Below, piece after piece: positions 305 through 22,772 of a stretch of 64,000 nucleotides of DNA. This DNA comes from Lachnospiraceae bacterium (lineage in GTDB: Bacteria > Bacillota_A > Clostridia > Lachnospirales > Lachnospiraceae), in the NCBI GenBank assembly GCA_017416505.1, contig JAFQCI010000026.1, positions 1 through 64,000 on the forward strand, read 5' to 3'. Made by a program: the position numbers and the translations under genes. The notes under the pieces are model-generated. The model was not told the DNA's origin and searched no databases. It saw nothing but the letters and a program-made list of their open reading frames with translations. The first letter of the stretch is position 1; each line of letters starts with the position of its first letter.

Positions 305-1564
305 ATGAATTTATTAAGTTCTTATAATTACTATACCCAGGCATTCAGCCAAATATATAACAAACCAACTACAAAATATGATACCCATAAAAGTTCGGAA
401 TTAAAAACTATTTATAAAAAAATGGTATCTACCAATAAACAGTCCCCACTTTATAAAATTACACTTTCAGAAGATACCCAGAACTATGTTTTAGGAATTA
501 AAAGTGCAGCGGTAGAATTAAAAAATTTATCTTCTTTCCTATCGGATTCTGATGACCCTATTTACGAAGATAAAACAGTATACTCTTCTGATGTAAACTT
601 TGTAAAAGCACGATTAACTACAGAGGATTATTCTAAAGTACCCCAGAGCCTTTCCTTTGAAGTTCAGTCCCTTGCTACTTCACAGAAAAATGAAGGTAAA
701 ATGCTTTTAAAAGATTCTGCCAGCATTCATCCTGGGACCTATACTTTTGCTATTACGAAAGAAGACGAAACCTACCATTATCAGATAACTACGAAGAAAA
801 CTGATTCTAACCAGACTATCATGAAGAATTTAAGAAACTTTATCAATCAGTCTGACATTGGAATTAAGGCTTCTATCAAATACGAAAAAGATCGTTGTGC
901 CATGGTTTTAGACTCCGAACGTACCGGAACCCAGTTTCAGCTTTCTGATATCTCACCTTCTACCGGTATTGTGTCCAGTATGCGGCTAAATAACATCGTT
1001 TCGGAGGCATCCTGTGCAGAATTTACCATTAATGGTGACCCGAAAGTATCTGCTACCAATGAAATTACCATTAATAATTCCATGGAAATCGATTTATTAG
1101 CCCCTACTGACAAGGCTGTTTCCATAGAATTAGGACTTGACAGCACAAGAATTATTGAAAAAGCGAAAGAATTTGTTTCTTCTTATAATTTTTTAAATTC
1201 TCTTGCTACGGAGCACTTAGATACCCAGAAAAGTGCGAAAAAGCTACTCTCCGATATCGTATCTGTGGCAGAAACCAACCAAGATGCCTTGGAACGAGCC
1301 GGACTGATGTTAGAAGAAGACGGTTCCATCCGGGTAGACGAATCTTTATTGGTTCAGGGAATTGAAAGCGGTGAATTTGTTGATTTATTCGCAGATATTT
1401 CTTCTTTTAAAAATGATATTATTAAAAAGACCGAGGCTCTCTCTTTAGACCCTATGTCTTATGTAGATAAAAAACTTTTGACCTATCCAAACTTTAAACG
1501 TTCCTTCCCAAACCCATATATGCCTTCCATGTATACCGGAATGTTGTATAATCAGTACGTATGA
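305..1564 (+). CDS. Orphan FliD-like (flagellar cap-type) protein
   Basis: The product is 419 aa. The start at 305 is chosen over an in-frame ATG at 287 because AAAGGAGG (290-297) sits seven bases upstream of it. The middle and C-terminal parts resemble FliD/hook-associated protein 2: an INGDP segment, a region rich in short beta-strand patterns (ITINNSMEIDL), then a helical part (EKAKEFVSSYNFLNSLA, later ERAGLMLEEDGSIRVDESLL). The usual FliD N-terminus is not recognisable. The end is a Pro/Tyr-rich tail (NPYMPSMYTGMLYNQYV) instead of the usual coiled coil. No other flagellar genes lie nearby. A true filament cap, a secreted relative or a surface structure protein are all possible. The family call is fairly safe; the function is inference. 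Confidence 0.7.
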   Translation: MNLLSSYNYYTQAFSQIYNKPTTKYDTHKSSELKTIYKKMVSTNKQSPLYKITLSEDTQNYVLGIKSAAVELKNLSSFLSDSDDPIYEDKTVYSSDVNFVKARLTTEDYSKVPQSLSFEVQSLATSQKNEGKMLLKDSASIHPGTYTFAITKEDETYHYQITTKKTDSNQTIMKNLRNFINQSDIGIKASIKYEKDRCAMVLDSERTGTQFQLSDISPSTGIVSSMRLNNIVSEASCAEFTINGDPKVSATNEITINNSMEIDLLAPTDKAVSIELGLDSTRIIEKAKEFVSSYNFLNSLATEHLDTQKSAKKLLSDIVSVAETNQDALERAGLMLEEDGSIRVDESLLVQGIESGEFVDLFADISSFKNDIIKKTEALSLDPMSYVDKKLLTYPNFKRSFPNPYMPSMYTGMLYNQYV

Positions 1565-1715
1565 TACCAGGGTCAAAAGGTCATACTTTTCATGCTTGCA
1601 TGAAAAAGTATGACCTTTGTGACTCGCAAAACATGAGAAAGTAGCCCGATAGGGCGGATTTCGAATGTTTTAGAATTGCGGAAGCACAAAGTGCGTAGCA
1701 ATTCGTAGGTATCAT
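1561..1715. repeat. Intergenic inverted-repeat element bounded by ATGATACC/GGTATCAT
   Basis: The 8-bp arms ATGATACC (1561-1568) and GGTATCAT (1708-1715) are perfect inverted repeats. The left arm overlaps the stop codon of the FliD-like gene. Inside is a long hairpin (about 1576-1618), with AAAGGTCATAC pairing with GTATGACCTTT and a CATGC/GCATG tip. A second short stem GAATTGC/GCAATTC follows. The left part resembles bases 45813-45880, so this is a repeat family and not only a terminator. Confidence 0.55.
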
Positions 1716-4133: not shown

Positions 4134-4730
4134 TTGTCCATAAACGGGTTAAAAATAGGGATAGGACTGACCGGGTCCTTTTGTACTTTTGAAAAAACCT
4201 TTCAGTTGTTAGAGCAGTTAAAAGAAGAAGGTGCCATAGTAACCACCGTCTTCTCTCCGCTTTCCCAGACTGTAAAATGCCGTTTTGGAAATGGAGAAGA
4301 TTTTTTAAAACATGCTTATGAAATCACGGAGAAAGCTCCTATTACAACCATAGCCGGAGCAGAACCTATCGGTCCAAAGCATATGTTTGACATTTTTATC
4401 CTACTTCCCTGCACCGGAAATTCTTTAGCTAAATTAGCAAATGGAATCGTGGATACTCCGGTTCTTATGGCAGCCAAGAGTCACCTGCGTAACGGAAGCC
4501 CTTTGTTAATCTCTGTTTCTACCAACGATGCACTTAGCATGAATTTTAAAAATATAGGGCTATTAATGAATATGAAGCATATCTTTTTTGTACCTTTTGC
4601 ACAGGATAATCCTGACGCAAAGCCAAACTCATTAATTGCAGACTACGATATGCTGATTCCAAGCATAAAAGCAGCCTTAGAGCATAGACAGCTACAGCCT
4701 GTCCTTGCTCAAAAAACAGAAAGGAAGTGA
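4134..4730 (+). CDS. dpaB: Dipicolinate synthase subunit B (flavoprotein-like)
   Basis: The product is 198 aa, starting at TTG 4134 one base after the dpaA stop. AAAGGAAG in the end of dpaA serves as its ribosome site. It has the flavoprotein/UbiX-like fold of SpoVFB: IGIGLTGSFCTFEK at the N-terminus, LPCTGNSLAKLANGIVDTPV in the middle, and SVSTNDALSMNFKNIGLLMN with PFAQDNPDAKPNSL near the end. It forms dipicolinate synthase with DpaA. Non-ATG starts on both subunits and the one-base spacing suggest translational coupling. Its stop codon lies five bases before the asnB ATG. Confidence 0.88.
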   Translation: MSINGLKIGIGLTGSFCTFEKTFQLLEQLKEEGAIVTTVFSPLSQTVKCRFGNGEDFLKHAYEITEKAPITTIAGAEPIGPKHMFDIFILLPCTGNSLAKLANGIVDTPVLMAAKSHLRNGSPLLISVSTNDALSMNFKNIGLLMNMKHIFFVPFAQDNPDAKPNSLIADYDMLIPSIKAALEHRQLQPVLAQKTERK

Positions 4731-4735
4731 AACTA

Positions 4736-6580
4736 ATGTGTGGTATTGCAGGTTTTGCTAACCTCAATCACAATTTTCAAAATAAAGAAATCCAATATCG
4801 AAACATTATCGATAAAATGAAAGATGCTTTGGGACACAGGGGACCGGATGACCGCGGAACTTATCTTGGAAAACACGCAGTATTAGGTCATACCCGTCTT
4901 AGTATCATCGATTTACTGACAGGGCATCTTCCCCTTACCAGAATGTTTCGTGGTGCAAAATTTACCATAACCTACAATGGTGAAATCTATAACATGAAGC
5001 CCTTAAAAGAGGAGCTCATCCGCTTAGGCTATGATTTTGTCACCGGAAGTGATGCTGAGGTAGTATTGATTGCATACATTGCATACAAGGAGAAATTTAT
5101 TACAAAACTAAACGGTATTTTTTCTTTTGCTATTTATGACGAAGAAAAAGAAAGTCTTTTACTATTTCGTGACCAGCTAGGCGTAAAACCTTGTTTTTAC
5201 GTTTATCAAAACGATACCTTATACTTTGCTTCAGAAATTAAGGCATTGTTTGCCCATCCGGATATTCATCCCGTTTTGGATTCCAAGGGACTTACGAAAC
5301 TGTTAGCCCTTGGCCCTGCCAGACCTTGTGGGGATGGTATTTTCCAAAATGTATTGGAAGTTCTTCCAGGACATTATCTGGAATTTAATAAAAATGGACT
5401 TTTCGACCATTGTTATTGGACTTTAAAGGCTCGCCCCCACAATGACTCCTATAAAGAAACTGTTGAGAAAGTCCGGTTTCTTTTAGAGGATGCAGTAAAA
5501 CTGCAACTATTATCCGATGTTCCTATCAGCACCTTCCTATCTGGTGGAATTGATTCCAGTATTGTAACTGCCATTGCTGCAAGGGAACTTAAAAAAGAAG
5601 GAACGCCCTTAAGCACTTATTCCTTCGATTTTACAGACAATCAAAAATATTATCAGCAAAATTCCTTCCAGCCAAGTCTGGACCGACCTTTTGTAGATAT
5701 TATGGTGGAACAATATAAGACCAACCATACCTATTTGGAATGTGATTATCCTTCCTTGTATGACCATCTGGTGCCAGCTACTCTTGCAAGAGATTTTCCT
5801 TGTATGGCAGACGTTGAGGCTTCTTTGCTTTATTTTTGCAAATTAGTTTCTAAGAACCATAAAGTAACCTTAACCGGAGAATGTGCAGATGAAATCTTTG
5901 GCGGATATCCTTGGTTTTTAAGATACCAGACAGAGGAATTTGATAATTTCCCATGGTCCAATGATATGTCCTCCCGTACTTTATTGTTAAACAAGGAACT
6001 TGCAGAACTTCCACTTTTGGAATGTTCCAAGGAATATTACCAAAGCACCTTGCTTGAAGCTCCTATCTGCGAGGAAGACCCTGACAATAATAAAATCCGT
6101 CAGATTTCTTATTTGAATATGCGTTGGTTTATGCTCACCTTATTGGAAAGAATGGACCGAACCAGTATGAATACCGGATTAGAAGCAAGAGTACCTTTTG
6201 CTGATTATCGAATTGTGGAATATCTTTATAATATTCCATGGGAGATGAAGGCCCATAACGGGAAAGAAAAGGGATTATTAAGAGATGCCTTTTCTAATTT
6301 ATTACCAGATGAAATTCTAAATCGTAAAAAGAGTCCTTATCCTAAAACCTACCATCCGGCTTACGAAATGCGGTTAAAGGAAGAATTGTTAAATCTTATT
6401 AAGGATAGCAGCCAGCCTATCAATCAAATTCTCAACCGTAAAAAAGTATTAAAGGTAATGGGAACGGATTTAGATTATTGTCATCCATGGTACGGTCAGC
6501 TTATGGCAGGCCCACAACTATTAGCCTATTATATTCAAATGAATGCATGGCTAAAAACCATAAATCCAGCCTTTGTATAA
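4736..6580 (+). CDS. asnB: Glutamine-dependent asparagine synthetase
   Basis: The product is 614 aa. It makes asparagine from aspartate, ATP and glutamine. The start at 4736 (MCGIAGF) is required so that Cys2 becomes the N-terminal nucleophile of the class II glutaminase domain (about 1-190). An in-frame ATG nine bases earlier would bury it, and AAAGGAAG (4720-4727) is correctly spaced for 4736. Glutaminase residues are seen in GHRGPDDRG and YNGEIYN. The synthetase domain carries the pyrophosphate loop SGGIDSS (about 269-275) and GECADEIFGGYPW. It is co-transcribed with dpaAB, which suggests a sporulation-linked copy like B. subtilis asnO (inference). A hairpin follows at 6595. Confidence 0.93.
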   Translation: MCGIAGFANLNHNFQNKEIQYRNIIDKMKDALGHRGPDDRGTYLGKHAVLGHTRLSIIDLLTGHLPLTRMFRGAKFTITYNGEIYNMKPLKEELIRLGYDFVTGSDAEVVLIAYIAYKEKFITKLNGIFSFAIYDEEKESLLLFRDQLGVKPCFYVYQNDTLYFASEIKALFAHPDIHPVLDSKGLTKLLALGPARPCGDGIFQNVLEVLPGHYLEFNKNGLFDHCYWTLKARPHNDSYKETVEKVRFLLEDAVKLQLLSDVPISTFLSGGIDSSIVTAIAARELKKEGTPLSTYSFDFTDNQKYYQQNSFQPSLDRPFVDIMVEQYKTNHTYLECDYPSLYDHLVPATLARDFPCMADVEASLLYFCKLVSKNHKVTLTGECADEIFGGYPWFLRYQTEEFDNFPWSNDMSSRTLLLNKELAELPLLECSKEYYQSTLLEAPICEEDPDNNKIRQISYLNMRWFMLTLLERMDRTSMNTGLEARVPFADYRIVEYLYNIPWEMKAHNGKEKGLLRDAFSNLLPDEILNRKKSPYPKTYHPAYEMRLKEELLNLIKDSSQPINQILNRKKVLKVMGTDLDYCHPWYGQLMAGPQLLAYYIQMNAWLKTINPAFV

Positions 6581-8145: not shown

Positions 8146-9897
8146 TTATTGTCTTACTTTAATATGAACTTCTCTTAATTGTTGTTCTGAAACTTCACCA
8201 GGAGCTCCGCACATTAAGTCCTGAGCATTACCATTCATTGGGAAGGCAATTACTTCACGAATGTTTTCTTCGTTTCTTAACAACATAATCATACGGTCTA
8301 CACCAGGAGCCATACCTGCATGTGGTGGTGCACCGTATTGGAATGCATTGTATAATGCACCGAATTTTTCTTTTAAATCTTCCTCCTGATATCCTGCGAT
8401 TTCGAATGCCTTAACCATGATATCTAAATTATGGTTACGAACTGCACCGGAAGATAATTCCACACCATTACAAACAATATCATATTGATATGCAAGAATA
8501 TCCAATGGGTCTTTTGTATTCAATGCTTCTAAGCCACCCTGAGGCATAGAGAATGGATTATGGGTAAAGATGATTTGCTTTACTTCTGCATCGTATTCAT
8601 ACATTGGGAAATCATTTATAAAGCAGAAACGGTATGCATTCTTTTCTAATAAATCCAAACGTTCTCCTAATTCTGTACGCAACTGACCTGCATATAAAGC
8701 AGCCTTTTCTTCTTTATCCGCAATAAAGAAAATAGTATCGCCTGCTTCTAAGCCTGCGATTTGGGCAATTTCTCCCTTTTTCTCTTCTGGGATAAATTTA
8801 TCGATTGGTCCCTTATAACTTAAATCTTCTTTTACTTCTAAGTATCCTAAACCACCCATACCAATAGAGGTAGCGAATTTCAATAATTTTTCGTGGAATC
8901 CCTTAGACATATCTGCGTGTACCTTAATGGCACGAACAGTCTTTCCGTGGAATGGTTTAAAGGTACATTCCTGGAAGAAATCTGTTACGTCTACAATTCT
9001 TAATGGATTTCTTAAATCCGGCTTATCTGTACCGAATTCCAACATTGCTTGACGATAGCTGATAACAGGATAAGGTGCTTTGGTTACGCTGGCACCTTCC
9101 GGAGCAAACTTTTCAAAAGTAGCAGTTAATACTTCTTCTCCCACACGGAATACATCTTCCTGGGTTGCAAAACTCATTTCGAAATCTAACTGATAGAATT
9201 CTCCTGGGGAACGGTCCGCACGGGCATCCTCATCACGGAAACAAGGTGCAATCTGGAAATACTTATCGAATCCCGAAACCATTAATAATTGTTTGTATTG
9301 TTGTGGTGCCTGTGGTAAAGCATAGAACTTTCCTTTAAATTTGCGGGAAGGCACAATATAATCTCTTGCTCCTTCTGGAGAAGATGCACATAAAATAGGA
9401 GTCTGAATTTCTAAAAATCCCATTTCTGTCATTTTCTCTCTTAAGAAACTGATAACCTTGGAACGGAATACGATATTATCCTTTACCTTTTTATTTCTTA
9501 AATCCAAATAACGATATTTTAAACGTAAATCTTCACGAATTTCTTTCGAAGTCATTACTTCAAAGGGAAGTTGTTTATAAACCTTTCCTAATACTTCAAC
9601 TTTATGAGCTTCTAACTCAATCGTACCGGTAGGTATTTTATCATTGTAAGTTTCTTCATCTCTATGTTGAATCAAGCCTTCTACACTGATACAGTCTTCC
9701 TTATTCAATCCGTTTAATAAACTGGTATCACGCATAACCACCTGCATAACTCCATACATATCTCTTAAATCGATAAAAGAAACTCCACCATGGTCACGAA
9801 TATTTTCTACCCATCCGGCTATCTTCAAAGTCTGTCCTACATTGGACTCTGAAATCTGGTCCATTGTCATGTTACGATAAATGTTTGATGTGTTCAT
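8146..9897 (-). CDS. aspS: Aspartate--tRNA ligase (possibly also charging tRNA-Asn)
   Basis: The product is 583 aa, the bacterial-type class II enzyme. The N-terminal OB fold binds the anticodon (GWVENIRDHGGVSFIDLRD). Catalytic motif 2 is FRDEDARADRSPGEFYQLD and motif 3 is GMAPGVDRMIMLL. The GAD insert lies between them, and the aspartate signature QAPQQYKQLLMVSGFDKYFQ is present. The ATG at 9897 has GAAAGGAAG upstream. It is controlled by the T-box leader at 9924-10228, whose specifier appears to be AAC (Asn). If so, this is likely a non-discriminating AspRS that feeds tRNA-dependent asparagine synthesis. Discrimination cannot be read from the protein by eye. Confidence 0.95.
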   Translation of the reverse strand: MNTSNIYRNMTMDQISESNVGQTLKIAGWVENIRDHGGVSFIDLRDMYGVMQVVMRDTSLLNGLNKEDCISVEGLIQHRDEETYNDKIPTGTIELEAHKVEVLGKVYKQLPFEVMTSKEIREDLRLKYRYLDLRNKKVKDNIVFRSKVISFLREKMTEMGFLEIQTPILCASSPEGARDYIVPSRKFKGKFYALPQAPQQYKQLLMVSGFDKYFQIAPCFRDEDARADRSPGEFYQLDFEMSFATQEDVFRVGEEVLTATFEKFAPEGASVTKAPYPVISYRQAMLEFGTDKPDLRNPLRIVDVTDFFQECTFKPFHGKTVRAIKVHADMSKGFHEKLLKFATSIGMGGLGYLEVKEDLSYKGPIDKFIPEEKKGEIAQIAGLEAGDTIFFIADKEEKAALYAGQLRTELGERLDLLEKNAYRFCFINDFPMYEYDAEVKQIIFTHNPFSMPQGGLEALNTKDPLDILAYQYDIVCNGVELSSGAVRNHNLDIMVKAFEIAGYQEEDLKEKFGALYNAFQYGAPPHAGMAPGVDRMIMLLRNEENIREVIAFPMNGNAQDLMCGAPGEVSEQQLREVHIKVRQ

Positions 9898-9923
9898 AAG
9901 TTCTTCCTTTCTTATTTTGAAAT

Positions 9924-10228
9924 AAAAAAATTCGCCCTAAACAAAATGTTCAGGACGAACAAATATTGTCCGCGGTACCACCTGACTTACTGATTTCCAG
10001 TCACTTACCGGTCTAAACCTCGTTGTGTTACGTACAACCACGTCGCACCTACTAATAAACCTTCTTTACGTTCGGATTGCAGCTCTTAAGTGTTATTCAT
10101 GTAAATTCATTCTATGAGGATTCCACCACCCCTCACTCTCTGAAAGCGATAATCTACACTACTTCTCTTCGTCATAGCCTTTTCTTTATTATGACACTTA
10201 TCTTCACCAAAAGTGCCATCTTCTCATG
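9924..10228 (-). promoter_or_regulatory. T-box riboswitch leader of aspS, specifier read as AAC
   Basis: On the - strand the T-box bulge AGGTGGTACCGCGGA (about 9968-9983) is intact. It is followed by the terminator TTCGTCCTGAA...TTTAGGGCGAA (9931-9959) and seven Ts. Stem I is visible: TGTAGATT (10151-10158) pairs with AATTTACA (10100-10107), and AAGT (10161-10164) pairs with ACTT further down. The internal loop carries AG on one side and UGAAUAAC on the other. After the loop-E GAA and one base, the specifier triplet is AAC (10092-10094), followed by A. That reads Asn, not Asp. The typical GAGGGGTGGTGGAATCC distal region is also present. Confidence 0.9.
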
Positions 10229-10234
10229 TTCCAT

Positions 10235-10263
10235 ATTATATCTCAGCCTTTTTCCCTTGTCAA
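10235..10263 (-). promoter_or_regulatory. Consensus sigma-A promoter for the aspS T-box transcript
   Basis: A perfect TTGACA (10258-10263) and a perfect TATAAT (10235-10240) are spaced by 17 bases on the - strand. The -35 box overlaps the stop codon of the upstream tcdA gene, so aspS has its own start even though the genes are tightly packed. Confidence 0.88.
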
Positions 10264-10994
10264 GTTTCTTCCTTTATCAAATCCTTGATTACTTCGCCTG
10301 CAATCATAAGTCCTGCTACAGAAGGAACAAAAGCAATACTGGCAGGAACCGGGCGTTTTCTAACTCCTTCGGTATCTTCCGAAGAACCTGTATTGTCTTC
10401 ATTTTTCACAGGAATTTCCTGAGAATATACTACTTTTAGCTTTTTTATGCCACGCTTTTTTAGTTCCCTTCGCATAACCTTCGCCAAGGGACATACCTGA
10501 GTTTTATAAATATCAGAAACTTCCAGCCTGGCTGGTTCTAATTTATTTCCTGTCCCCATACTGCTGATGACAGGCACACGGGCAGCCTCTGCCTTCATAA
10601 TGATTTCAATTTTTCCCGAAACTGTATCAATGGCATCTACCACATAGGAATAATCTTCAAAATGAAAGTCATCCGAGGTCTCAGGAAGAAAAAAACAATT
10701 ATGGGTATGAACCAGAGCATCCGGATTAATATCCAAAATGCGTTCTTTCATAACATCCACTTTGCTTTTCCCTACTGTTTTATGAGTAGCAATAATCTGG
10801 CGGTTTAAATTACTCAGACAAACTGTGTCATTGTCAATCAAATCAAACTCTCCGACACCGCTTCGAGCCAAAGCCTCTACTACATAACCGCCGACTCCAC
10901 CTAAACCAAACACTGCCACTCTCGCATTCATTAAAGTCTGTACCGCCGATTCTCCTATCAATAATTCTGTTCTTGAGAACTGTTCTGGTATCAT
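10260..10994 (-). CDS. tcdA: tRNA threonylcarbamoyladenosine dehydratase (ThiF/E1-like)
   Basis: The product is 244 aa. It uses ATP to cyclise t6A at position 37 of ANN-decoding tRNAs. The E1-like nucleotide site is VAVFGLGGVGGYVVEALARSG near residue 30, followed by DLIDNDTVCLSNLNRQ. A conserved cysteine lies in YKTQVCPLAKVMRRELKK, and SSMGTGNKLEP precedes it. The C-terminal GLMIAGEVIKDLI helix is typical. The length matches the family (about 240-270 aa). A ribosome site AAAGGAAG precedes the ATG. It lies 64 bases after citrate synthase, with a small palindrome between them. MoeB and ThiF share the fold, but the Asn/Arg and Cys pattern favours TcdA. Confidence 0.87.
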   Translation of the reverse strand: MIPEQFSRTELLIGESAVQTLMNARVAVFGLGGVGGYVVEALARSGVGEFDLIDNDTVCLSNLNRQIIATHKTVGKSKVDVMKERILDINPDALVHTHNCFFLPETSDDFHFEDYSYVVDAIDTVSGKIEIIMKAEAARVPVISSMGTGNKLEPARLEVSDIYKTQVCPLAKVMRRELKKRGIKKLKVVYSQEIPVKNEDNTGSSEDTEGVRKRPVPASIAFVPSVAGLMIAGEVIKDLIKEET

Positions 10995-11030
10995 TACAGC
11001 TTAACTTCCTTTCTCTTTCCATGCATTATA

Positions 11031-11054
11031 TTACTGTTCACTGGTGGCAGTAAC
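11031..11054. repeat. GTTACTG-family small palindrome (short copy)
   Basis: TTACTG...CAGTAA arms surround TTCACTGGTGG. It is a shortened relative of the palindromes at 1, 28360, 63000 and 63560. It lies between gltA and tcdA. Confidence 0.5.
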
Positions 11055-11058
11055 TATA

Positions 11059-12423
11059 TTATCTATCCTCTAACGGTACATATGACATCTGTTTCGCCAC
11101 ACTCTTATATGCCGGACGAATAATTTTTCCTTCATTGATTAATTCTTCTAATCGGTGGGCACTCCAACCGGAAATTCTTGCAATCGCAAAAATCGGTGTA
11201 TAAAGTTCCAATGGCAGACCTAACATAGAATATACAAAACCACTATAAAAATCTACATTTGCACTAACACCTTTATATATTTTTCTTTCCTGTGCAATTA
11301 CCTTTGGAGCAAGACGTTCAATCGCCTCATACAAAGCAAATTCTTCTTTTCGATTCTTTTCCACAGATAATTTTTCCACAAAGGATTTAAATACTTTTGC
11401 TCTAGGGTCTGAAATGGAGTAAACCGCATGACCCATACCATAAATCAAGCCCTTTTGGTCAAAGACTTCCTTTCGAAGTATTTTTAACAAATACTCTTCT
11501 ATGGCAGCTTCATCTGTCCAGTCAGAAATATTTTCCTTAATATTCGCTATCATTTCCATTACTTTAAAATTCGCACCACCATGTTTTGGTCCCTTTAAAG
11601 AACCAAGAGAGGCCGCTACTACAGAGTAAGTATCTGTACCAGAAGAGGTAACTACATGAGTCGTAAAAGTAGAATTATTACCACCACCATGTTCCGCATG
11701 AATTACCAATGCCAGGTCTAAGATTCTGGCTTCCAGTTCTGTATACTTACTATCTCTTCTTAATGTATATAAGATATTTTCTGCTGTAGAAAGTTCCTTT
11801 TGAGGCGGATGAATGATAAGGCTTTCCCCTTCAAAATAATGGCTGTATGCCTGATAACCATAAACAGATAACATTGGAAAATTAGCAATTAACTGTATAC
11901 ATTGTCTTAAAACATTTGGAATGGAAATATCATTTGCCTTTTCATCATAGGAATACAAAGTCAAAACACTTCTTGCCAATGTGTTCATCATATCTTTACT
12001 TGGTGCTTTTAATATAATATCTCGCACAAAGCTAGGTGGCAGGGAACGATAGTCTGATAAAATCCCCTTAAATTCCTCTAACTGTTGCTTCGTTGGAAGT
12101 TCACCAAATAATAATAAGTATGTGGTTTCCTCAAAACCAAAACGTTTCTCCTTTGTAAATCCTGCTACCAATTCCTCAATATCGACACCATGATAATATA
12201 ATTTACCCTCACAAGGAATCATGTCATCATCTTCCACGATATAGGACTGTATCTTCGATACTTCTGTTAAGCCGGTTAATACTCCTTTTCCACTTAAATC
12301 CCTAAGGCCCCTTTTTACCTCATACTTACCGTATAATTCGGGATCAATGCTTCCATTTTCGATACATTTTTGTGATAACCTCACAATTTCCGGCGTAACT
12401 TCCGAATAATTCATTTCTTTCAT
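11059..12423 (-). CDS. Citrate synthase
   Basis: The product is 454 aa, an Si-type citrate synthase condensing oxaloacetate with acetyl-CoA. All three catalytic residues are seen: His in ALVIHAEHGGGNNSTF, His in IYGMGHAVYSISDPRA, and Asp in SANVDFYSGFVYSMLG. The PKHGGANFKVMEM segment is typical of the large domain. A long N-terminal extension (first about 60 residues) before LTGLTEVSKI resembles other clostridial citrate synthases. It lies downstream of ptsH with a 59-base gap and may be read from the cdaA cluster. In an anaerobe it probably supplies 2-oxoglutarate for glutamate synthesis (inference). Confidence 0.92.
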   Translation of the reverse strand: MKEMNYSEVTPEIVRLSQKCIENGSIDPELYGKYEVKRGLRDLSGKGVLTGLTEVSKIQSYIVEDDDMIPCEGKLYYHGVDIEELVAGFTKEKRFGFEETTYLLLFGELPTKQQLEEFKGILSDYRSLPPSFVRDIILKAPSKDMMNTLARSVLTLYSYDEKANDISIPNVLRQCIQLIANFPMLSVYGYQAYSHYFEGESLIIHPPQKELSTAENILYTLRRDSKYTELEARILDLALVIHAEHGGGNNSTFTTHVVTSSGTDTYSVVAASLGSLKGPKHGGANFKVMEMIANIKENISDWTDEAAIEEYLLKILRKEVFDQKGLIYGMGHAVYSISDPRAKVFKSFVEKLSVEKNRKEEFALYEAIERLAPKVIAQERKIYKGVSANVDFYSGFVYSMLGLPLELYTPIFAIARISGWSAHRLEELINEGKIIRPAYKSVAKQMSYVPLEDR

Positions 12424-17966: not shown

Positions 17967-19943
17967 TTATGATTCAAATGCCTTTTTTTCGAATTCAGAT
18001 ACCGGCATTGGTTTTGCAAAATAATATCCTTGAATCAAATCGCAGCCTTGTTCTGCTAAAAAGTCCACCTGTTCTTTTGTTTCGATTCCTTCTGCTACGA
18101 TTTTCATATCCAGTCGCTTTGCAAGACAAATCGCTTCATTTACAATGATTTTTCCTTTTTCCGTATCCTCGATACCCCGGAAGAATTCTGCATCCAGCTT
18201 AATTACATCCAATGGCAGTTCTTTTAAGGAATTAAGTGAGGAATAGCCTGCTCCAAAATCATCCATAGAAACAGCAAATCCATACTCTCTTAACTTTCTA
18301 ACGGTTTCCAACAATACCTCTTTATCTTCAAAGAATGCACTTTCTGTTAATTCCAGCTCAATGACTTCATGAGGAACCTGGTATGCATCTACCAATCGGC
18401 AGATATGCTCTGCCAAATCATCTTTCATAAAATGGGCTCTGGACACATTGACAGAAATAGGAACTACCTGTCTGCCTTCCTTTATCCATTCCGCCTGTTG
18501 TCTTGCTACTTCTGAAATCATATAATCGTCCAGTTTTAAAATAAAACCATTATTTTCGAAAATGGGAATAAAACGATTCGGTGGTATAAAACCTTCCTCC
18601 GGACTAACCCAACGAACCAAGGCTTCTGCTCCGGATAGTTTTCCCTCTCTGGAAGAGTATTTCGGTTGAAGATAAACATGAAATTCTTTTTTTCCTAAAG
18701 CTTCTTCCATGGTATCTTCTACTTTTCTTTCCCAAAGCTGTTGCTTTTGCATTTCCTGGCTGTACCACCCTATCCATTCGTCTCCTTCTGAGTGTAAGGC
18801 AGACCTTGCGATACTTGCATTGTTATACATAGCATCCATATCGATCCCACCGCGAGTGATTTCATAAACACCCGCACTAAAATCCAGTCTTTTCCCTTGC
18901 CTTGCCGCTTCTATTCCGGTTACGATATCAGCAATCCTCTGCTCCAATTTTTCCTTCGTTTCATAATTCAGTAATAAGGCATAATCTGCTCTCGCATAAT
19001 GCACTGCAAATTCTTTTTTGCTAATATTTCTTTGTAATTCATGATAAATAAATTCCAGCAAATCATTTCCTTCTTTCGCACCATAACAGGTACAAAAACT
19101 CTGGTATTTGTTCATTCTAATATGTATCAGGGCATATTTTTCTTTGTTTCGAAAACTCTTTCGGATAAATTTTTCCCCTTTTGCCTTTAGATAAGTCCAG
19201 TTCTTTCCTCCGGTAACCGGATCTAAATATAATAGCTGTGTTAATCTTCTCTGGTCCCGTATCAAACCAATGGTAAAAACAATGTAATAAATGGCAAATG
19301 CTAATACCACCATCATTAATATGACAGCAAAGATACTAACACTCGTCACCTCTGATTCTTTAACTGCTATATCACTTTTTACAAAGATCTCCCTTCCAGC
19401 TTCATCCATGGAAGAAGAAATCCAGAAACTAAAATAAATCAAAGGTTCATCACTGTCATCAACATCTGCTTCAAGAATTCCATCTAAAATTATTTTAGTA
19501 TCGAATTTTATCTCACCATCTTGTGCGTATACGGTATTATCACTTTCTTCTAATAAATAAATGGCATAATCCTTTGGTCCTGTGATTACTACTAATTGAT
19601 TTTCCATTTTAGGTTCAGAATCCCCTGATTTCAGGATGGTTTCTTGTTCTCCATTCTGAATACAAACTTCCTGCACATCCGGTAGCGTCCTTTGCAATTC
19701 TGTTACAAGCTGAATCAGTTCTTCATCGTTTTCTATCTGTTCTTCTTCTATGATTTGTGTTATTTTCTGGACATTTTCCATGGTATATTGGAGTTTGTTT
19801 GTTGCCAGATTACCCAAAGACAGAATAAACATCATAACAACAATAGAAACAATGGCTAAAATAAATATAAACAAAGTTATCATAGATGGCCAGATTCGTT
19901 TTCTATGTAATCTTCTGATTTTCTTTTCCTTTTGACTGCTCAT
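17967..19943 (-). CDS. Membrane EAL-domain c-di-GMP phosphodiesterase with degenerate GGDEF
   Basis: The product is 658 aa. Membrane helices at about 21-43 and 203-226 flank an extracytoplasmic sensor region. A GGDEF-like domain follows (about 235-345), but the signature is replaced by RADYA (318-322), so cyclase activity is unlikely. The EAL domain (about 405-650) looks intact: GAEALVRW (EAL at 440-442), PISVNVSR, ELELTESAF, MDDFGAGYSS, KLDAEFF, and IVAEGIETKEQ. It should hydrolyse c-di-GMP to pGpG. Its ATG overlaps the stop codon of the upstream permease-acyltransferase gene (ATGA), implying coupled synthesis and a link between c-di-GMP and that protein (inference). Confidence 0.9.
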   Translation of the reverse strand: MSSQKEKKIRRLHRKRIWPSMITLFIFILAIVSIVVMMFILSLGNLATNKLQYTMENVQKITQIIEEEQIENDEELIQLVTELQRTLPDVQEVCIQNGEQETILKSGDSEPKMENQLVVITGPKDYAIYLLEESDNTVYAQDGEIKFDTKIILDGILEADVDDSDEPLIYFSFWISSSMDEAGREIFVKSDIAVKESEVTSVSIFAVILMMVVLAFAIYYIVFTIGLIRDQRRLTQLLYLDPVTGGKNWTYLKAKGEKFIRKSFRNKEKYALIHIRMNKYQSFCTCYGAKEGNDLLEFIYHELQRNISKKEFAVHYARADYALLLNYETKEKLEQRIADIVTGIEAARQGKRLDFSAGVYEITRGGIDMDAMYNNASIARSALHSEGDEWIGWYSQEMQKQQLWERKVEDTMEEALGKKEFHVYLQPKYSSREGKLSGAEALVRWVSPEEGFIPPNRFIPIFENNGFILKLDDYMISEVARQQAEWIKEGRQVVPISVNVSRAHFMKDDLAEHICRLVDAYQVPHEVIELELTESAFFEDKEVLLETVRKLREYGFAVSMDDFGAGYSSLNSLKELPLDVIKLDAEFFRGIEDTEKGKIIVNEAICLAKRLDMKIVAEGIETKEQVDFLAEQGCDLIQGYYFAKPMPVSEFEKKAFES

Positions 19944-22600
19944 TTTTTCTCCTCTTTTACTTTTTTCTCATGCAGTTCATACATATATTCTGTGGCAAAC
20001 TGAATTTTTGTAGCATTAAAACCTTCTTCCACAGGAAATAAGAAAAAACTGTCATCCAATGTAGATAAGGTAATACATTGCCCCATATTTCGATAGTTAT
20101 ATTCTGTATGTACAGAAAAACATTGTGCAGGAGTCCACACTAACGTTTCTTCTTCGTCTGTCAGGTAATTATGAAAGGTCAACTGATATCCGTCTAGGTC
20201 ATGAAGTAAATGTCCCACTCCACAGCAAATAAAGTTTTTCGCATTTGGAAGTGCATAAACTTCCACTTTACAATCCAAAGAATAAGTATGGTTATTTATT
20301 TCCGCTTTTACCTGTTTTCGCTGCCACTCATACCAATCCGGAATATATCGCTCCTCATTATCCCTCCTCAAGGTTCCATATTCATCCATCTCGTATTCTA
20401 CCCCACAATTTCGGCAGAATAACTTATTATCTTCGGAATCCATTTGGAATTCCACTTTACAACATCTGCATTGATATAAAGGAAGATGTAATCCCTCGGC
20501 ACGTTTTTTATAGGTAATAGCCATTTTTTGCTCCCGCTGCCATGCATATTCATCATAAGCCAATAATTCACTAAGTTTTTCATAAATTTCATCCACAGAA
20601 AGCTCCCTAACTTCCTGCTTCGTCAATGCATAAGTCATTTCTGTATGTAACTTTACTTCTTTTCGTTTTGTAAGATTCCAGATAGGAGATTGCAGATAAT
20701 TTCCCTTCATATTTAAGGTAACCACAGGAACCTTTAACATTTTCACCAGTTTTGCTACCGACATAGGTAATTTTGAACTAGTTCCTACATTGGCATATCT
20801 TGCTTCCGGGTAAAATACCAGAATTCCCTTCCGTTCCATAACCTTCTTAATATTTTTAATTAAAGATAAATCATCTACAAACTTTCTGGTTCCCAGGCAT
20901 CCAATCTGACGGTATAACCATTCCCCGTAATACTCAAATCCTTCCAGTTCTGACACATAATTTGCACGATATGGAAACAGTGTCAATGGAGTAACATAAA
21001 AATCCGTAAAGGAATGATGAGTTCCTAAAACCAAAAATGGAGGTTTTATTCCTCTTTTTTCTGATTTTACAATCTTTAAATTCGCCTTCCATGTAATGAT
21101 GTAGCAATAAAGCCATAAAAAAGGCATCGCAAATAAATTCTGTTTCGGTGGTATTTTCACCCGGTCGAAAGGTTTTACCACAGGATTCAATTCCGTATCT
21201 TTTCTTACATAACGACGAACCCATGGCAATTGACATAATAAGTAATATAATATTCCGGTTCCAAGGAAGGAACAGCCAGTAGGCGTTAATGTAAACAAGA
21301 AAGAATTATGTATTTCTCCTGTTACAGGATTATAAATGGCAAGAGAGATAAAAAATCCTGCCAACAGGCACAAAAGACCTACTATATTAAATCCTTTGGT
21401 ATACTGATACGCATTATGCCCCTCCATTTCATAGGCGCTTTTTAAATCGATTCTTTGTTTTCTGACAAAAAAGAAATCCGTAAACAATAAAGCCGCCAAA
21501 GGTGCATACACACAGGCACTAATGGTTAGGAATGAGCCAAAATACTCTACGATTTTTCCCCAGGCACAAAGTCCGCCTACATAAACTCCAAGAATAATAA
21601 CCAAGAGCCTATAATCGGCTTTACGGAAACTGGATTTTAACATAACTCCATATAAATAAGAGCCTACTGCCTGAGTTCCTATGTTGGCAAAAGCAACTAA
21701 AAGCAATGAAGTTAATCCAAGAGCAGGTATGGACAAGGTAGCCATCATCAAAGTAGGATCATCTACCATTTCTCCTGTCACATATTGCATGGCAATCGCC
21801 ATAACGGCACCTACTACCACAAAGAAAGAACCTGCCAACCCCTGACCCAGGACTCCGGCATAGTAACCTGATTTTTCACTTTTGCAAAGACGTGGGATTT
21901 CTGCCATACCTCCCACCAAAGTAATAACAAAAGCAAAGTTTGCCTCAATAGATAAAATATAAGGTGTAATATTGTTATCATATGCAGTAATTTCCGGTTT
22001 ATAATTCCATATTACTTCTGCCGGCACAGCAGAAAATCCTACAATCACCACTACTATCCCCACTAGCAGTAATAAGGGAACTAAAATTCTGGTAGTCCAG
22101 GTAATAGTAGAAACACCCCGATACGCAATAAATGTTCCAAGGATAACGCAAAACAAACCTAACATAAGGTGACTTCCCTCAGGCAACGTGACCCCAAACA
22201 ATCCAAACAGATTCTCCATGGAGGAAGCAAATAAATCACAACACACGGCATACCACGGATAATTAATCAGGATAATCACTACCGTCATGACTTTTACGCC
22301 TCTTTTTCCAAATACAGTCCGCAGCCATACCCAGATATCAATTCCATATCTCGTAGATAAAATTACCGGAAGCTGATAAATTGCTAACATTAAGATAGCA
22401 CCTAAAAAAGCTCCAATTAACAACTGTTTAAATCCTACCAGACTTGCCAGATAGGAACCCTGGGTATAACTCCAGGTAGCGATGCAGTATCCTGACAATA
22501 CCAGCAATGCATCTAAAAATCCATAGGTACGCTCTTTTCCAAGTACGGGCCAGATACCACAGTAGACTTCATTTTTAATTTTCTCATTCGTATCCTTCAT
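19940..22600 (-). CDS. NCS1 permease fused to a PlsC-like acyltransferase and a zinc ribbon
   Basis: The product is 886 aa from the ATG at 22600 (GAGGG eight bases upstream; an in-frame GTG lies at 22627). Residues about 20-470 form an NCS1 (cytosine/purine permease type) transporter with about twelve membrane helices, opening WPVLGKERTYGFLDALLVL. Residues about 495-690 form a lysophospholipid-acyltransferase-like domain: the HX4D motif is HHSFTD (528-533), with FYPEAR (596-601) in place of the usual EGTR block. Residues 711-732 hold a CxCC...CxxC zinc ribbon, followed by a region without a recognised fold. The frame is continuous with no sign of a frameshift. A 52-aa membrane peptide precedes it and an EAL protein follows with overlap. 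I know of no standard function for this combination. Confidence 0.85.
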   Translation of the reverse strand: MKDTNEKIKNEVYCGIWPVLGKERTYGFLDALLVLSGYCIATWSYTQGSYLASLVGFKQLLIGAFLGAILMLAIYQLPVILSTRYGIDIWVWLRTVFGKRGVKVMTVVIILINYPWYAVCCDLFASSMENLFGLFGVTLPEGSHLMLGLFCVILGTFIAYRGVSTITWTTRILVPLLLLVGIVVVIVGFSAVPAEVIWNYKPEITAYDNNITPYILSIEANFAFVITLVGGMAEIPRLCKSEKSGYYAGVLGQGLAGSFFVVVGAVMAIAMQYVTGEMVDDPTLMMATLSIPALGLTSLLLVAFANIGTQAVGSYLYGVMLKSSFRKADYRLLVIILGVYVGGLCAWGKIVEYFGSFLTISACVYAPLAALLFTDFFFVRKQRIDLKSAYEMEGHNAYQYTKGFNIVGLLCLLAGFFISLAIYNPVTGEIHNSFLFTLTPTGCSFLGTGILYYLLCQLPWVRRYVRKDTELNPVVKPFDRVKIPPKQNLFAMPFLWLYCYIITWKANLKIVKSEKRGIKPPFLVLGTHHSFTDFYVTPLTLFPYRANYVSELEGFEYYGEWLYRQIGCLGTRKFVDDLSLIKNIKKVMERKGILVFYPEARYANVGTSSKLPMSVAKLVKMLKVPVVTLNMKGNYLQSPIWNLTKRKEVKLHTEMTYALTKQEVRELSVDEIYEKLSELLAYDEYAWQREQKMAITYKKRAEGLHLPLYQCRCCKVEFQMDSEDNKLFCRNCGVEYEMDEYGTLRRDNEERYIPDWYEWQRKQVKAEINNHTYSLDCKVEVYALPNAKNFICCGVGHLLHDLDGYQLTFHNYLTDEEETLVWTPAQCFSVHTEYNYRNMGQCITLSTLDDSFFLFPVEEGFNATKIQFATEYMYELHEKKVKEEKK

Positions 22601-22613
22601 CGTCTTTTCCCTC

Positions 22614-22772
22614 TTATAAAAATGCACCTGCTATTATCCCTAGCAGACAAACAAGCACAACCACAGCCACCTCAATATAATCTCTTTTTCCCATTCTTTT
22701 TACTTCAGGCATTCCATTTTCAACCTGTGCAATGCGAAGTTCAATTTCTTTTTCGAATTCCTTTTCTGTCAT
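22614..22772 (-). CDS. 52-aa single-helix membrane peptide
   Basis: The ATG at 22772 has AGAGGG ten bases upstream. The peptide has an acidic N-terminus (MTEKEFEKEIELRIAQVENG), a short basic stretch (VKRMGKRDY), and one C-terminal membrane helix (about residues 33-52, VAVVVLVCLLGIIAGAF). Its stop codon is followed directly by the GAGGG ribosome site of the fusion gene, 13 bases before that ATG, so the two are surely co-translated. A role as a small subunit or regulator of the permease-acyltransferase is inference. Confidence 0.75.
   Translation of the reverse strand: MTEKEFEKEIELRIAQVENGMPEVKRMGKRDYIEVAVVVLVCLLGIIAGAFL

Follow-up and report, generated by a model that had tools for sequence, protein, structure and literature searches.

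Gene organization and domains of the unit

The DNA studied here is a 64,000-nucleotide stretch from a Lachnospiraceae bacterium (contig JAFQCI010000026.1, positions 1 to 64,000; the window), and its minus strand carries a micropeptide gene, a permease-acyltransferase fusion gene and an EAL-domain gene in a row. The micropeptide gene (22614..22772; start at 22772, end at 22614) encodes 52 aa. The fusion gene (19940..22600) encodes 886 aa, in which a permease, an acyltransferase, a zinc ribbon and a PH-like domain are joined. The third gene (17967..19943) encodes a membrane-anchored EAL protein with a degenerate GGDEF domain. A preliminary description of the window had read these genes as three coupled genes, and this layout was confirmed on the minus strand. 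Thirteen bases lie between the end of the peptide gene and the ATG of the fusion, and the peptide stop codon overlaps the shared AAGAGGG ribosome site; the fusion and EAL genes meet in an ATGA overlap. The fusion frame is free of stops over 886 codons (22600-19940), as had been described; the mechanical call of its open reading frame (ORF) gives 895 aa from an upstream GTG start, which is located within the peptide gene.

The permease part of the fusion (residues 1-475; 21176..22600, minus strand like all parts named here) has an NCS1 fold, and PF02133 is matched at residues 19-424 (57.1 bits, above the cut-off of 23.5). The acyltransferase part (about residues 490-690; 20531..21133) has the PlsC/LPLAT fold, with an HX4D motif at residues 528-533 (21019-21002). 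Its PF01553 match at residues 513-631 scores 20.1 bits, just below the cut-off of 23, which four of seven scanned relatives pass; the 1-acylglycerol-3-phosphate acyltransferase model TIGR00530 was not reached (13.1 bits, cut-off 103). A four-cysteine zinc ribbon follows (residues 709-745; 20366..20476; C711/C714/C729/C732). The preliminary description had recognized the HX4D motif and the zinc-ribbon cysteines, and both are kept in 79/79 aligned fusions; the HX4D catalytic motif is also present in 66/66 members of a wider set. The PH-like C-terminal domain (residues 753-886; 19943..20344) is an extra part that had been overlooked. The motif-III glutamate (residue 599, alignment A1) is S in 7/79 fusions and D in 2/79, with the HX4D motif intact, and activity may differ in these proteins.

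Distribution of the fusion and its neighbours

Homologues of the fusion were searched at the protein level, with the 7993 best candidates scored. This gave 154 matches, and the best 120 of them are mostly full-length fusions with 58-94% identity, in named organisms that are nearly all Clostridia. A genome scan with one genome per species, which detects close relatives, identified 42 loci. The permease is found in 39 of them (22 fused, 16 split, and L036 without an acyltransferase), and the acyltransferase alone in three. In all 16 split loci, the acyltransferase lies downstream of the permease on the same strand, with 39-157 nucleotides between the matched stretches in 15. An extra gene separates the halves in the 16th, L033; it is a likely lipoprotein gene (9530-11290).

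Phylogenetic trees placed the fused rows in a single clade, for the permease (29 rows, support 98/89) as well as for the acyltransferase (25 rows, support 100/99). L044 and L074, which are copies of L004, were excluded from both trees. The same-genome copies L045/L076, L046/L075, L047/L077, and L043/L073 were kept in the permease tree and in a 56-row permease alignment, and L045-L047 were removed from the acyltransferase tree. A single origin of the fusion, from genes that stood side by side, is the simplest explanation of these comparisons, since there is one fused clade on each tree and close relatives have the two genes as neighbours. It had been considered that homologues might always be split by a frameshift; the split relatives are in fact separate neighbouring genes. 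An assembly artefact as the source of the fusion was ruled out by the many fused genomes that form one clade. Three observations stand beside these results. The split pair of L029, from a metagenome-assembled genome labelled Treponemataceae, is placed among Clostridia on both trees, by transfer or mis-binning. The fusion gene of L093/L095 (G764) is broken into two open frames. In L031, L032, and L034, genes that resemble parts of indolepyruvate ferredoxin oxidoreductase, named by eye, are found close to the unit on the opposite strand.

The 52-aa micropeptide has a short charged N-terminal segment, a conserved D in its KRDY stretch, and one hydrophobic C-terminal helix. A profile was built from 23 peptides (the window and 22 loci), and it contains no peptide from 15 of the 37 loci that have DNA upstream, nor from 13 further genomes. 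The profile match is the ORF immediately upstream of the permease in 37/37 of these loci and in 13/13 further genomes; the membrane micropeptide of the preliminary description is real and conserved. L012 and L032, which start 36 and 88 bases ahead of the permease, are too short there to show the peptide and stand outside these counts. The peptide also accompanies permeases without an adjoining acyltransferase, and the profile search found none at 28/28 acyltransferase-only loci. Across 200 genomes of one family, the genomes with a strong match (nine matches, E <=6.6e-8) are the same nine that have the permease; four of these peptides were already part of the query alignment (A3). Four further weak, partial matches (E 1.7e-4 to 7.7e-4), in open frames of 219, 604, 312, and 57 aa, were regarded as chance matches. 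The 57-aa frame (G761, C1:276127-276219, E 7.7e-4) lies in a genome without a permease at the scan threshold.

Together, these distributions argue strongly that the micropeptide is a partner of the permease, probably as its small subunit, which is the best reading. In L021 (7248-7994), the frame of the peptide extends into a further domain that shows kinship to a putative lipoprotein of L026 (E 1.5e-17; 31% across 127 residues). This putative lipoprotein, whose lipobox was read by eye, is upstream in L026 and L003. The C-terminus of the peptide is therefore probably outside. The Pfam and NCBIfam models gave no match at or below 1e-3 for 13 peptides (best 0.0013), and the peptides would define a micropeptide family that these models miss.

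The EAL protein matches PF00563 (236.5 bits) and has the catalytic EAL motifs; GG[DE]EF is absent, in agreement with the dead GGDEF domain described before. Such a gene comes after the fusion in only one of the 19 fused loci (of 22) that have at least 2 kb downstream, namely L001, where the genes overlap as in the window. A distant EAL protein is encoded upstream of the fusion in L023, L027, and L030. The proposal that the EAL protein belongs to the unit did not hold, and the gene was rejected as a conserved partner. Neighbour conservation, which had been suggested as a check, was thus found for the peptide and not for the EAL gene. No other gene cluster recurs in more than five of the 42 loci and the window. 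As judged by these comparisons, the conserved unit is the micropeptide plus the fusion; a link to cyclic di-GMP (c-di-GMP) may exist in the window's own lineage, outside the conserved unit.

Permease fold and substrate clues

Mhp1 and CodB make up the five best PDB matches of the full model (Mhp1 4d1a, E 3.5e-12; CodB 7qoa, E 7.0e-12), with TM-scores by target of 0.77 and 0.87 and identities of 18-21%. The permease belongs to the NCS1 superfamily by this NCS1/LeuT fold and by PF02133. The best NCBIfam match is CytX (54.7 bits, cut-off 310); the NCS1 model TIGR00800 scores 50.8 bits (cut-off 353), and neither cut-off was reached. Binding-site positions were placed by sequence alignment to Mhp1, in 56 rows that represent 52 different genomes or records (four genomes occur twice). 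The Trp of transmembrane helix 3 (TM3) is kept in 56/56 rows. The aromatic position of TM6 is N in 54/56 and M in 2/56, so the aromatic pair that sandwiches a nucleobase is incomplete. According to passages of PMC9379551, this TM3-TM6 pair is conserved throughout NCS1. Two residues ahead of the TM6 aromatic site lies E219 (codon 21944..21946, minus strand), acidic and situated where TM6 presumably breaks; the position is E in 55/56 rows, D in 1/56, and Gly in Mhp1. In the presumed TM1, W43 is invariant over the 56 rows, with either Y or F at position 45. One Thr of the Na2 site is kept. The acidic and aromatic side chains would suit a quaternary ammonium group, and a nucleobase substrate is unlikely.

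The gene neighbours of relatives give a second clue. Six permeases with 43-52% identity to that of the window (L036, G211, G269, G783, G855, and G841) have no adjoining acyltransferase, which means none beside the permease, as distant family members can exist elsewhere in the genome. A LicCA protein (nucleotidyltransferase plus choline-kinase domains) adjoins the permease on the same strand in 6/6 of them. The best solved relatives of one LicCA copy are CTP:phosphocholine cytidylyltransferase and choline kinase, some of the LicCA neighbours bear winged-helix domains, and two choline-binding-repeat proteins come after in L036. In L080, a separate classical PlsC-type acyltransferase gene (4648-5400, 73.9 bits) lies about 2.6 kb from a Lic-linked permease on the other strand. 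A more distant permease in G746 (32%), with the same kind of peptide, has an iron dehydrogenase on one side and an aldehyde dehydrogenase on the other. These two neighbours are a hint only, because their scores are nearly tied and below the cut-off: choline dehydrogenase 296 vs lactaldehyde reductase 294 bits for the first, whose PDB matches are headed by lactaldehyde reductase, and aminobutyraldehyde 409 vs betaine-aldehyde 404 bits for the second.

LicCA also co-occurs with the permease in 391 Clostridia genomes. At E values up to 1e-50, it is present in 5/7 permease genomes vs 10/384 others (p 8e-7), and in 3/5 permease-plus-acyltransferase genomes vs 12/386 others (p 4e-4); in G033, one of the 15 LicCA genomes, the match is limited to the nucleotidyltransferase part. 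Riboswitches gave no clue, as none was found at gathering scores close to the unit in the window or among the matches of 17 scanned loci. In the window, a T-box leader (9948-10184, minus strand) and a Clostridiales-1 RNA (1562-1714, plus strand) score above the Rfam gathering score. The LicCA genes beside all six relatives, and the TM6 aromatic replaced with an acidic residue nearby, suggest that the permease probably takes choline or a choline compound. This points away from the source annotations, which where given read cytosine permease, hypothetical protein, or acyltransferase-domain protein; these names are probably wrong.

Proposed function and alternative readings

We tentatively read the unit as an importer that takes up a choline compound, has a small subunit, and is coupled to the acylation of membrane lipids in the way LplT is to Aas. 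The permease part would be an NCS1-fold importer, probably cation-coupled, that takes up choline or one of its compounds, and the quaternary ammonium might be held by E219 at the TM6 break and by aromatics such as W116 of TM3. The micropeptide would be a single-helix subunit of the permease, with its N-terminus inside and its C-terminus outside. The acyltransferase part would act in the cytosol on the membrane surface, aided by the PH-like domain, and would acylate a lipid precursor. Import and acylation might then be coupled in the LplT-Aas manner; a direct coupling is possible, with considerable doubt. The acylated molecule is possibly glycerophosphocholine (GPC), and if GPC is also the solute, a single chain would take it up and acylate it on the way to lyso-phosphatidylcholine (lyso-PC) or phosphatidylcholine (PC). 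That one chain, dependent on the peptide, imports GPC (or choline) through its NCS1-fold part and feeds it to the fused acyltransferase as a GPC-to-phospholipid machine is unlikely as a complete scheme.

Several known systems were compared with the unit. The preliminary description knew no standard role for such proteins in one chain. This is fair for NCS1 proteins; a transporter-acyltransferase pair, however, has a precedent in LplT-Aas. PMC11416262 describes the LplT and Aas genes as neighbours in many bacteria and, in some, as apparently a single ORF, a form whose function is uncharacterized. LplT-Aas resembles the unit in pairing a transporter with an acyltransferase of the cytosolic face, and both the adjacent-gene and one-ORF states occur among the relatives of the unit. 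A reference title in PMC10434233 assigns LplT to the major facilitator superfamily, whereas the window's permease has an NCS1 fold with a zinc ribbon, a PH-like domain, and a micropeptide. When LplT and Aas were fused artificially, the expression of LplT was disrupted (PMC11416262), so that a working natural fusion cannot be taken for granted. Mhp1 and CodB share the fold, the TM3 Trp, and one Na2-site Thr with the window's permease, which differs by its low identity, the absent TM6 aromatic, the acidic residue nearby, the micropeptide, and the fused enzyme. In Lic-1 (LicB, LicA, LicC), a choline permease would be expected where the permease of the relatives adjoins LicCA; LicB is presumably from a different transporter family, and no LicCA match was found in the window. 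A small helix subunit on a LeuT-fold carrier is known from MetPS and from the shape of MAP17, and an SGLT2-MAP17 entry is among the fold matches of the permease model. These are likewise a LeuT-fold carrier with a single-helix partner, although the window-type peptides match no Pfam or NCBIfam model. Among the top matches in open-licence literature, no report was found of a small single-helix partner of an NCS1-fold protein, nor any account of the unit under NCS1-acyltransferase fusions or NCS1 choline transport. The unit is real, unusual, and conserved; a new function is plausible, and the micropeptide partner is new.

The evidence on the other side concerns first the choline assignment. No LicCA gene was found near the permease in the fused or split loci examined. 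In 12 genomes with permease and acyltransferase, at 1e-8, both LicCA halves are present in five, one half in two, and neither in five (G002, G004, G005, G168, and G764); a query with the L036 protein gave weak partial matches in G002 and G168. The kinship of genomes inflates the significance of the p-values above, the G746 dehydrogenase scores are a hint only, and LicCA might serve ethanolamine. One of the two CodB Na2 hydroxyl ligands aligns with Gly. As for acylation, the motif-III glutamate is replaced in 9/79 fusions, and the wider acyltransferase family is present in 71/391 genomes. Distant members occur elsewhere in four of the seven genomes with Lic- or dehydrogenase-linked permeases (G783, G855, and G841, 32-44%; weaker in G269, 27%). 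The genomes of L037-L039 have the close acyltransferase subfamily without a permease match. All these points weigh against a coupled choline importer.

The acyltransferase distribution bears directly on an alternative that we regard as possible but rather doubtful: the importer, of choline type, and the acyltransferase, a general lysophospholipid enzyme, might be two independent activities, fused after long operon neighbourhood without a shared substrate, so that the fusion would serve as a membrane anchor or set the stoichiometry. The acyltransferase relatives mostly stand alone, the L037-L039 genomes lack a permease match, and the halves are separated by a further gene in L033, which fits this explanation. 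It accounts less well for the split loci, in all of which the acyltransferase comes after the permease in the same orientation, at short distance in 15, and for the retention of the fusion across a diverse clade. Alternatively, the permease part might work as a transceptor, a sensor by which the acyltransferase is controlled, and not as a nutrient importer. Its fusion to an enzyme and the winged-helix domains of some LicCA neighbours, which indicate regulation near such permeases, are in line with a sensor; we consider it improbable, as the relatives without an adjoining acyltransferase sit beside metabolic enzymes and the presumed transport-site residues are conserved. Equally improbable is an importer of nucleobases or hydroxymethylpyrimidine, as the Pfam and NCBIfam names would have it: PF02133 is above its cut-off, CytX is the top NCBIfam match, and the TM3 Trp is retained, but the CytX and NCS1 scores fall far below their cut-offs and the TM6 aromatic, conserved in NCS1 in the passages of PMC9379551 cited above, is N or M in all 56 rows. 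Control of transport or acylation by the EAL phosphodiesterase through c-di-GMP is most improbable, as the ATGA overlap in the window and L001 is set against a downstream EAL gene in a single testable fused locus.

For a coupled choline-compound importer, the GPC pathway of Xanthomonas and mitis streptococci might be relevant. It requires a GPC importer and a GPC acyltransferase, roles that the fusion could fill; GPC as substrate and PC in the window's organism are hypothetical. Parts of PMC6805115 and PMC10434233 (2019 and 2023) call both proteins unidentified, while two Xanthomonas lyso-PC acyltransferases are known there and UgpABCE of another bacterium is reported as a GPC transporter (PMC6805115). 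The fusion is a candidate for the two roles and no more. If the unit does import choline compounds, Clostridia of the gut and rumen would have in it a route for choline uptake, and it might help to account for the scavenging of choline compounds by some bacteria. If the solute is GPC, gut Clostridia would be able to make choline phospholipids without LicCA, with the importer and the GPC acyltransferase in one protein, and the micropeptide would found a new class of transporter subunit.
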